Positions 19,812-63,304 of a stretch of DNA of 64,000 nt are shown here, piece by piece. Within the stretch, counting starts at the first letter, position 1. Each line of letters opens with the position of its first letter. A program made the position numbers and the translations under genes. The notes under the pieces are model-generated. The model was not told where the DNA came from and made no database searches. It saw only the letters and a program-made list of their open reading frames with translations. This stretch comes from Rhodothermales bacterium (GTDB taxonomy: Bacteria; Bacteroidota; Rhodothermia; Rhodothermales; VXPQ01). Where the stretch lies: contig OX638295.1 in NCBI GenBank assembly GCA_951812345.1, forward strand, positions 1 through 64,000, read 5' to 3'.

Positions 19812-19906
19812 GGAGATCAGCCCTGGTCCTGACGATAATAGAGTGCCGAAGCGGATGAGTTAATCTGGGGTTCTGCCAGCCCAACACCTTCCGCATCCTT
19901 TCAAAA

Positions 19907-20010
19907 GGTCATGGGGTGCGCATTTTCAGACAATGTAGGGCCCGAGAAACGCCTGCGAACCGGTAGCATGCCGCACGTTTACGTTGTATGAAAATGCGCA
20001 TCGCATGACC
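19907..20010. repeat. Hairpin element B1 (60-nt core, copy-specific arms)
   Basis: Left arm 19907-19928 pairs with right arm 19989-20010 at 20 of 22 positions. The outer tips GGTCATG and CATGACC are perfect, and the inner part is TGCGCATTTTCA against TGAAAATGCGCA. Between them is a 60-nt core containing GGGCCCGAGAAACGCCTGCG and TGCCGCACGTTTACGTT, shared with the copies at 21904, 22135 and 56658. The outer arm sequence is unique to this copy. It lies between the third small gene and xylA. Confidence 0.9.
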
Positions 20011-20019
20011 AGACAGCGC

Positions 20020-20060
20020 AGGGCCCGAGAAACGCCTGCGAACCGGAAATTGCGCACGTT
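20020..20060. repeat. Partial second core of the hairpin family, without arms
   Basis: Just ten bases after B1 the core motif GGGCCCGAGAAACGCCTGCG recurs, then runs into a shortened tail (TTGCGCACGTTGAAC). Convincing complementary arms are not visible. It appears to be a decayed or incomplete copy. The rest of 19812-20236 holds no gene that I can support. Confidence 0.7.
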
Positions 20061-21886: not shown

Positions 21887-21903
21887 CCCGGTCCTCCGAG
21901 GGG

Positions 21904-22002
21904 CATGGGGATGCGTATTTTCAGGGAACGTAGGGCCCGAGAAACGCCTGCGAACCGGTAGAATGCCGCACGTTTACGTTGCTTGAAAATACGTACCCCA
22001 TG
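21904..22002. repeat. Hairpin element B2
   Basis: Left arm 21904-21923 (CATGGGGATGCGTATTTTCA) pairs with right arm 21984-22002 through CATGGG/CCCATG and CGTATTTTCA/TGAAAATACG, with a small internal loop. The core 21924-21983 is 60 nt, as in the other copies. It sits 18 bases past the MazG stop, where a convergent gene ends at 22249, so it could act as a transcription terminator. Confidence 0.9.
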
Positions 22003-22016
22003 TCCTGCTATGTCCC

Positions 22017-22110
22017 CAAGGACACTCTGATTAAGTCCACAAAGCTCAGAGGCTTGCGAGAAGCGGGCTGGCAAGGAATGACGAAGCAGTGTGGCAGGCC
22101 CCACATAAGA
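22017..22110. repeat. Dispersed repeat A, left part (copy A3)
   Basis: AAGGACACTCTGATTAAGTC and the following block through GGCAAGGAATGACGAAGCAG and GGCAGGCCCCACATAA match the left part of the copy at 24766. The right end is absent. It lies exactly between hairpin elements B2 and B3. Confidence 0.8.
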
Positions 22111-22134
22111 GGGATGACCCGGTCCTCCGAGGGG

Positions 22135-22233
22135 TATGGGGATGCGTATTTTCAGGGAACGTAGGGCCCGAGAAACGCCTGCGAACCGGTAGAATGCCGC
22201 ACGTTTACGTTGCTTGAAAATACGTACCCCATG
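22135..22233. repeat. Hairpin element B3 (tandem duplicate of B2)
   Basis: This copy is almost identical to B2, arms and core, displaced by 231 bases. The duplication includes flanking sequence: 21881-22011 matches 22112-22242, starting at the GGATGACCCGGTCC block that holds the MazG stop codon. The single arm change I see is C to T at the outermost left base. Confidence 0.9.
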
Positions 22234-22248
22234 TCCTGCTATACCCTT

Positions 22249-24765: not shown

Positions 24766-25024
24766 AAGGATACTCTGATTAAATCCGCAAAGTTCAGAGG
24801 CTGAAAGGGGTGCGCTGGCAAGGAATGACGAAGCAATGTGGCAGGCCCCACATAATGAGGAATGACACAGCCAGCGTGCCCCTCTCTGCCTCCCGAAGGG
24901 CGCTTCACGCCCGCCGCCGCCCCGAATCTGCGGTGTTTTCCACTAATTTCAATGATGCAAATACAATATCTTTTACGCACGAGCGTGAAGCGCTGGTCAA
25001 AGTGGATTTGATCAGAGTATCCTT
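24766..25024. repeat. Dispersed repeat A, full-length copy A2 with terminal inverted repeats
   Basis: This 259-bp element begins AAGGATACTCTGATTAAATC and ends TTTGATCAGAGTATCCTT, imperfect inverted ends of about 16 bases. It has no coding capacity and looks like a miniature inverted-repeat transposable element. Its right end overlaps the stop codon of the large ThuA fusion gene (25023-25025). No transposase with matching ends is in the window. Confidence 0.8.
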
Positions 25025-56178: not shown

Positions 56179-56631
56179 ATGAGGCCACCCGTTTACATCA
56201 TTGCCGCCCTGTTGGCGCTTGCCGTCGCCACGCCCGCCACCGGACAGATGGTCGCCGACACCACATTCAGTTGGCGGGGATACCGCAACGTTTCGACCTG
56301 CCGCGTGCGCATCTACCGCTCGGCCCCAAAGGCCGCGCGCCCCATGACCGTAGTCCTCGACGAGCTCGCCGAGAACCGGGGCCGGTCCACACTCGACGAT
56401 GCGCCGCACCTTGCAGAAATGCTGTCGCGGAGTTTCCCCGTACGACCAGACTCGGCCTTCTGGATTTTCCGCTGGGGATCGTTCAGCTTTGCCGGGGCGA
56501 CCCCGGATAAAAAAGAAATCTACCTCCGCGCCACGTTCCGCCGAAGCAAAAGCGGGGCGCTGGGACCGCCCTCCTGGCGCCTGATCGACCGGACCACCGT
56601 AAGCGAATACACGGACCGGGCCTACCGGTGA
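56179..56631 (+). CDS. Secreted hypothetical protein
   Basis: The 150-residue product has a clear signal peptide (IIAALLALAVATPATGQ). A mature part of about 127 residues follows, with TTFSWRGYRNVSTCRVRIYR, AENRGRSTLDDAPHLAEML and SFSFAGATPDKKEIYLRATF. It resembles no family I know. The start context is ordinary. It converges with pdxH, and hairpin element B4 lies between them. Confidence 0.6.
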   Translation: MRPPVYIIAALLALAVATPATGQMVADTTFSWRGYRNVSTCRVRIYRSAPKAARPMTVVLDELAENRGRSTLDDAPHLAEMLSRSFPVRPDSAFWIFRWGSFSFAGATPDKKEIYLRATFRRSKSGALGPPSWRLIDRTTVSEYTDRAYR

Positions 56632-56657
56632 AAGTGACCGCGTAAGCACGTAAAGAG

Positions 56658-56761
56658 GCCCTGTGGTCGCGGATTTTCAGGGAACGTAGGGCCCGAGAAA
56701 CACCTGCAAACCCGTAGAATGCCGCACGTTTACGTTACGTGAAAGTGTGCGACCACAGGGC
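56658..56761. repeat. Hairpin element B4 (divergent arms)
   Basis: Left arm 56658-56679 starts GCCCTGTGGTCGC and right arm 56740-56761 ends GCGACCACAGGGC, a perfect 13-base match with no relation to the outer arms of B1-B3. The inner parts (GATTTTCA against TGAAAGTG) keep the family motif. The core is again 60 nt, with a few changes (AACACCTGCAAACCCG). It sits between the convergent ends of the secreted unknown and pdxH. Confidence 0.9.
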
Positions 56762-56775
56762 TATGCGATTACCCC

Positions 56776-57417
56776 TCAGGGCCCCAGCCGCTCCACATGC
56801 CACAGACCCGCCTCTTCGAGCCGGTACGCCAGGCGGTCATGCAGGCGATTCGGACGGCCTTGCCAGAACTCCATCGCGTGAGGCCGCAAAAGATACCCGC
56901 CCCACTCTTCGGGACAGGGCACACCGCGCCCTTCGTACTTCTTCCGGGCCATTTCCACGGCGGCCAGCAGCGTGGCGCGGTCCGCAAGAGAACGACTCTG
57001 CGCAGAAGCCGCCGCCGCCAGTTGACTCTCCCGCGGCCTCGATGCAAAATACGCCTCCGAGGTAGCCCGATCCGTGCGTTCCGTCCGCCCCTCTATACGC
57101 ACCTGCCGGTCCAGTTCGTCCCACCAGAATGTTAACGACGCCCACGGATTCGCCTCCAGATCGCGCGCCTTGCGGCTGCCGTAATTCGTGTAGAATACAA
57201 AGCCCGTCGGGTCATACCCTTTCAGAAGAACAATCCGCCCGGAAGGACGGCCCCGGGCATCGACCGTGCCGAGTGACATCGCGTTCGGATCGCGGCTCTT
57301 TGCGTGCGCGGCTTGCACCGCCTCCTCGAACCATGCCCCGAACAACGCCATCGGATCGTTACCGGCCGCATCGAAGCTGCCCCCGCTATATTCGCGTCTC
57401 AGTCCGCTTACATCCAT
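56776..57417 (-). CDS. pdxH: Pyridoxamine 5-prime-phosphate oxidase
   Basis: This 213-residue FMN enzyme oxidises pyridoxamine or pyridoxine phosphate to PLP. Motifs: NAMSLGTVDARGRPSGRIVL near 45-64, FVFYTNYGSRKARDLEANP near 73-91, the phosphate-binding RQVRIEGRTERT, and the C-terminal FWQGRPNRLHDRLAYR. The C-terminal residues of the active site are all present. It is a lone gene whose end lies 14 bases from hairpin element B4. Confidence 0.95.
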   Translation of the reverse strand: MDVSGLRREYSGGSFDAAGNDPMALFGAWFEEAVQAAHAKSRDPNAMSLGTVDARGRPSGRIVLLKGYDPTGFVFYTNYGSRKARDLEANPWASLTFWWDELDRQVRIEGRTERTDRATSEAYFASRPRESQLAAAASAQSRSLADRATLLAAVEMARKKYEGRGVPCPEEWGGYLLRPHAMEFWQGRPNRLHDRLAYRLEEAGLWHVERLGP

Positions 57418-63178: not shown

Positions 63179-63304
63179 AGGATACGCTGATCAAAACCTC
63201 TTCGCTCAGCACTTTAAGGTGGGACCTGCCGCACTGCTTCGTCATTCCTTGCCAGCGCACCCCTCGCAGCCTCTGAGCTTTGCGGACTTAATCAGAGTAT
63301 CCTA
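63179..63304. repeat. Dispersed repeat A, short full-length copy A4
   Basis: This 126-bp copy has both terminal inverted repeats (AGGATACGCTGATCAA at the left and TTAATCAGAGTATCCT at the right). It lies in reverse orientation to A2, sharing the block CTTCGTCATTCCTTGCCAGC. Its other half differs from that of A2. It occupies most of the gap between divergent purL and the VOC gene. Confidence 0.8.

Follow-up and report, generated by a model that had tools for sequence, protein, structure and literature searches.

A hairpin family with covarying arms in one Rhodothermales genus, and the probable origin of its B4 copy

Introduction

Integron attC sites are recombination sites that are read as folded single strands and have variable arms. 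Among dispersed repeats, the ERIC and YPAL stem-loops are intergenic, measure about 100-170 bp and conserve their fold over the family, as stated in an excerpt of PMC2267715. In the REPINs of Pseudomonas fluorescens and others, changes on one side of the hairpin are compensated on the other, according to an excerpt of PMC3116915. Going by that excerpt, dispersed hairpins with covariation are an established kind of element.

The hairpin B4 lies in a stretch of 64,000 nucleotides from a Rhodothermales bacterium (contig OX638295.1), which is called the window below. The genome of the window, G000, is 2.82 Mb in size. B4 and its relatives resemble the ERIC and YPAL repeats, as far as the excerpt describes these, in size, in their placement between genes and in a stem-loop fold that is kept family-wide.

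The B4 hairpin

B4 is situated between a short open reading frame, for which no Pfam family was found, and the convergent gene pdxH. The features of this locus are:

56179..56631, + strand, flanking ORF of 150 aa, which ends 26 nt before B4
56658..56761, + strand, the B4 element, a hairpin of about 104 nt
56656-56765, match of the R1 model to B4, 99.4 bits on the + strand and 30 bits on the - strand
56658..56670, + strand, left outer arm of B4, GCCCTGTGGTCGC
56689..56730, + strand, apical core of B4 with GGGCCCGAGAAACACCTGCAAACCCGTAGAATGCCGCACGTT, between the 31-nt arms
56749..56761, + strand, right outer arm of B4, GCGACCACAGGGC, exact reverse complement of the left arm
56776..57417, - strand, flanking convergent pdxH (pyridoxamine 5'-phosphate oxidase)

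The preliminary description credited B4 with an exact outer stem of 13 bp, and the two arms listed above bear this out. The full inverted repeat is longer, with 31 nt in each arm, no gaps, 84% complementarity and 42 nt between the arms. The window contains one perfect 13-bp inverted repeat with a spacer of at most 150 nt, which is that of B4; 40 dinucleotide shuffles contain 0.2 on average. When folded as RNA, the + strand of B4 reaches -51.8 kcal/mol (z -5.76), and an equally good fold is found in none of 200 shuffles. The opposite strand reaches -45.9 kcal/mol (z -4.85). The core has indeed drifted, as had been noticed: AACACCTGCAAACCCG differs by three mismatches from the AACGCCTGCGAACCGG of the other window copies. 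The GGGCCCGAGAAACACCTGCAAACCCGTAGAATGCCGCACGTT of the apical core is the best conserved part among the copies of G000 and G003.

The outer stem had also been called entirely new, without relation to other copies. This does not hold, because the orthologous copies in the sister species G003 and G004 have CTGTGGTCGC in the same place as the B4 stem; that the core and the arms have diverged was a correct observation. Compared with arms from 81 non-orthologous copies, the 16-nt arm of B4 has a mean score of 6.5, against 5.3 for shuffled arms; the margin is modest, and 9 of 300 shuffles score as high. The best single match scores 11, a value that 27 of 500 shuffles also attain. By comparison of the sequences, B4 inherited its outer stem from the family, the stem has since diverged, and it is not a trace of the target.

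Distribution of the family

Hairpins of about 105-110 bp, most of them intergenic, are present in every one of six genomes from a single Rhodothermales genus, and DNA and covariance-model searches found none in 108 other genomes of the order. A sample of 394 genomes of the phylum gave four matches, every one of them within the genus, and a pattern scan of the species genomes gave matches in two Rhodothermales MAG contigs. A weak match of 29 nt in another genus (genome G031, E 0.006) is taken as chance; the order-wide model search gave nothing in this genome. The family has no match in phages or plasmids, and none was found in viral contigs, in which one exact pattern was searched. A phage or plasmid origin was rejected on these grounds.

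The working set consists of 84 best-strand matches from 74 sources. Three core types can be distinguished among them: one of G000 and G003, with a related form in G002, one of G004 and G005, and a second G001/G002 type. Throughout the family the apex is conserved and the arms are variable. Copies are few in G000 and G003 and more numerous in G001, G002, G004 and G005. The window holds four full copies, including B4, and one core remnant, and the rest of the G000 genome gives weak or decayed matches only. The other family members in the window are:

19906..20013, + strand, sister copy
20017..20060, + strand, degenerate core remnant directly 3' of the 19906 copy
21900..22008, + strand, sister copy downstream of the MazG-domain gene
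22131..22239, + strand, sister copy, the later of the two in a 231-bp tandem duplication

Relative to the upstream gene, as placed by a rough home-made gene caller, the family members lie on the same strand in 33 cases and on the opposite strand in 38, with 13 left unassigned; 13 of the 84 stand between divergent genes. A 3'-UTR element of fixed orientation was rejected, since these rough calls give no strand preference.

Occupied, empty and altered sites

The hairpins occupy different places in different species. The three loci of G000 are common to sister species, so the genome of the window gives no sign of recent movement. The 19906..20013 copy has an orthologue in G003, and the matching place in G001 holds a copy of a different core type. 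Neither G000 nor G003 has the element at the positions orthologous to two G004 copies, where the nearby intergenic DNA differs and the breakpoints are not clean. No clean target-site duplication was found, nor was a clean single-element empty site for any copy outside the TIR unit of G004 and G005 described below.

The B4 site itself is occupied in G003 and G004. Beyond pdxH, the gene neighborhood of G001 and G002 differs, and no match to pdxH was found in G005. In G000 and G003 the core runs against the direction of pdxH, in G004 it lies on the pdxH strand, and the flanks are collinear. This difference in orientation is an inversion of the core within its arms.

The site downstream of the MazG-domain gene is occupied in G000, G004 and G005 and empty in G003, which retains only CCCCATGTCC, the ten outer bases of one arm. 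G001 and G002 show neither arm at their counterparts of this site. Removal of all that lies between two ACCC tetramers turns the occupied form into the empty one, and a junction of the empty type is also present in G004, beside its first MazG-gene end. The ACCC tetramers fit a duplication or a deletion alike, and one G004 site has a possible TA duplication. The simpler reading is that G003 would have lost its copy by deletion between the tetramers. An ancestral site with both arms and no core was not seen.

Half copies are joined to a duplicated MazG-gene end in G004 (contig C20) and G005 (contig C551), and about 3 kb of inserted sequence lies nearby. These half copies were considered as a sign of a nuclease acting at the apex and rejected as such, since the G003 gene also has GCGAACGGGAGAT at the place of the G004/G005 join, so that microhomology accounts for them. 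At some places different core types apparently stand at the same site, as with L103 (2001, G001) and L086 (2208, G002) and, seemingly, with the window site at 19906 and position 77370 of contig C6 in G001. It seems as if the core had been replaced or the site used twice. The 19906 and 56656 copies are 37 kb apart in G000 and 7 kb apart in G003 (L098), so the region has been rearranged.

Arm covariation and strand bias

B4 alone had been put forward as the strongest evidence of covariation. A single copy is no such evidence; it is the comparison of many copies that provides it. The proposal that the pairing itself is maintained gains support across the family, as 25 of 32 arm pairs have changes on both sides, a result obtained in 0 of 500 shuffles. 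Alignment A4, on which this comparison is based, comprises 44 of the 84 copies, chosen by hand, with near-duplicates, decayed and truncated copies left out. Over the 32 arm pairs, 91.5% of the cells are paired and every measure gives 0 of 500 shuffles. Related sequences can exceed shuffles of this kind, and of the measures the two that count pairs and types are safer. The signal collapses when the partner is slid by one column. RNAalifold finds 26 pairs, 20 of them with double changes. Arms that remain matched despite the change of their letters suggest that the folded single strand matters for the spread of the family.

By the symmetry of DNA alone, G.T and A.C mismatches should be equally common on the GGGCCC strand. 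They are not: the A4 cells contain 66 G.T against 12 A.C, and 33 sequences have more G.T, none more A.C. The distinct column-by-type classes number 23 and 9, respectively, and parsimony on a FastTree tree counts 41 gains of G.T against 9 of A.C. In all 84 matches, uncurated and with a few poor pairwise alignments (e.g. L129 and L108), the numbers are 79 and 22. The feature that is kept thus appears to be the single-stranded fold, of RNA or DNA, of the GGGCCC strand.

Sixteen comparisons between orthologous copies give a different picture. Changes between a Watson-Crick pair and G.T number 17, those involving A.C 7 and those involving other mismatches 20; the contrast of 17 to 7 is weak within orthologous pairs alone. 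Only one compensatory double change is present (L063/L123), so compensation is seen between sites and not within them. One-sided changes dominate, which indicates that resident copies mostly decay. These changes are few, and they would agree with selection that acts during spread and not through a role for the host at each site.

Neighboring repeats and candidate movers

Many copies of G004 and G005 lie inside a unit with inverted ends GGnnnCTCTGATTAAATC. These ends do not bound the hairpin in G000, G001, G002 and G003, where the ends of the hairpin itself vary. A second repeat of about 100 bp, GGACACTCTGATTAAGTCC...CACATAAG, is found in the window at 22016-22124, 24766-24866 and 63206-63303 and in many copies in the other genomes of the genus. 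The latter copies often lie at the ends of contigs, and the left end of the repeat is similar to the inverted ends that bound the hairpin units of G004 and G005. A module of about 50 bp, GGTTAAAATAATAAGGC...GGTTAAATAATTAAGGC, adjoins many G001 and G002 copies (e.g. L103, L085 and L110). In L062 and L118 (2001-2109) the left flank resembles the reverse complement of the right flank, and the palindrome extends past its usual end.

The Y1 (RAYT) transposase, PF01797, was found in none of the six genomes of the genus and in 5 of 14 control genomes; a REPIN driven by RAYT was therefore rejected. The integron integrase, TIGR02249, exceeds the cut-off in none of the six, which give weak matches only, as do all 14 control genomes, and an attC site was rejected on this basis. 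A reverse transcriptase domain, PF00078, occurs in one genome of six, G002, where it lies in a 1300-aa open frame (contig C4, 11610-12119), and reverse transcription was rejected as the mover for this reason. Rfam 15 has no match over the gathering threshold in the window, and three copies searched permissively gave sub-threshold matches only, so a known RNA family was rejected as well.

Proposed origin and maintenance of the element

By combining these observations, B4 can be described, at a probability of roughly two in three, as an old resident copy of a miniature mobile element that is restricted to the genus and whose fold was selected during spread. The element, about 105-110 bp in length, would be one long hairpin with a structured apex. 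It would be non-autonomous and would spread as a single strand, the GGGCCC one, in the form of either RNA or DNA. The fold of this strand would be needed during spread, so that the arms stay paired while their letters drift, and the same requirement would allow G.T steps and hardly any A.C steps. After insertion, a copy would decay slowly and might undergo deletion between short direct repeats or inversion of its core between the arms. Many G004 and G005 copies have probably multiplied as passengers of the GGnnnCTCTGATTAAATC-ended unit. It is conceivable, if somewhat doubtful, that the element, with arms that vary freely and yet always match, is recognized as a folded strand by its conserved apex and moved, within one genus, by an enzyme other than a Y1 transposase, an integron integrase or a reverse transcriptase.

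Compensatory changes combined with tolerance of G.T on one strand could also come from an RNA that is used by the host as an RNase III site, a stabilizer of 3' ends or a small RNA, with the fold selected at each place, since a preference for G.T is also expected of a transcribed functional RNA. The mostly intergenic placement fits such a role, as do the two orientations at the pdxH site, both of which put the GGGCCC strand after a gene that is encoded on that same strand. However, the 84 copies as a whole have no strand preference with respect to genes and include those between divergent genes, the decay of orthologous copies includes 20 non-wobble breaks, G003 lacks the copy that follows the MazG-domain gene, and no Rfam family reaches its threshold. 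Use of the hairpins as host RNA is thus unlikely.

Pairing might arise without any selection if template switching in the quasi-palindrome copied one arm onto the other. Parsimony gives 65 double changes from one Watson-Crick pair to another in a single step, transversion pairs included; the L063/L123 change is one such event between orthologues, and the flip of the core at pdxH indicates that the arms interact. This mechanical homogenization nevertheless predicts equal numbers of G.T and A.C intermediates, which is at odds with the gains counted above, and the orthologous copies show decay instead of correction. It is a still less probable explanation than a host RNA.

That the outer stem was made at insertion, one of two options in the preliminary description, is very improbable, whether by entry into an existing palindrome or by copying of the target flank into a matching arm: the CCCCATGTCC left in G003 and the lengthened palindromes of L062 and L118 agree with it, but a single partial arm is exactly what the ACCC-repeat deletion would leave, G001 and G002 have neither arm, and copies that stand at different sites have homologous arms.

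As a dispersed repeat with up to tens of copies per genome, the family offers a natural set of covariation data, in which the arms change together and a clear strand bias of the mismatches tells which strand has to fold. Identification of the mover would show whether repeats that fold as single strands can spread without RAYT.

Comparison with known systems

Many G004 and G005 copies are similar to MITEs in being part of a unit with inverted ends, whereas the hairpin in G000 to G003 has no such fixed ends. With attC sites the family has in common the variable arms and, apparently, the folded single strand, but its copies are dispersed instead of being arranged in cassette arrays, and no integron integrase exceeds the cut-off. 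The family differs from ERIC and YPAL in being confined to one Rhodothermales genus, the sequence comparison here being that with Rfam alone. The likeness to REPINs, as these appear in the excerpt, lies in a short hairpin located between genes, a large number of copies and compensatory changes, all of which are found in the family. REPINs, however, have conserved ends, a variable middle and a RAYT (Y1) gene, whereas in this family it is the apex that is fixed and the arms that vary, and PF01797 was not found in the six genomes. The hairpin family is not a REPIN; judged by its sequence features, it is best described as REPIN-like, with the pattern of conservation reversed and without RAYT.
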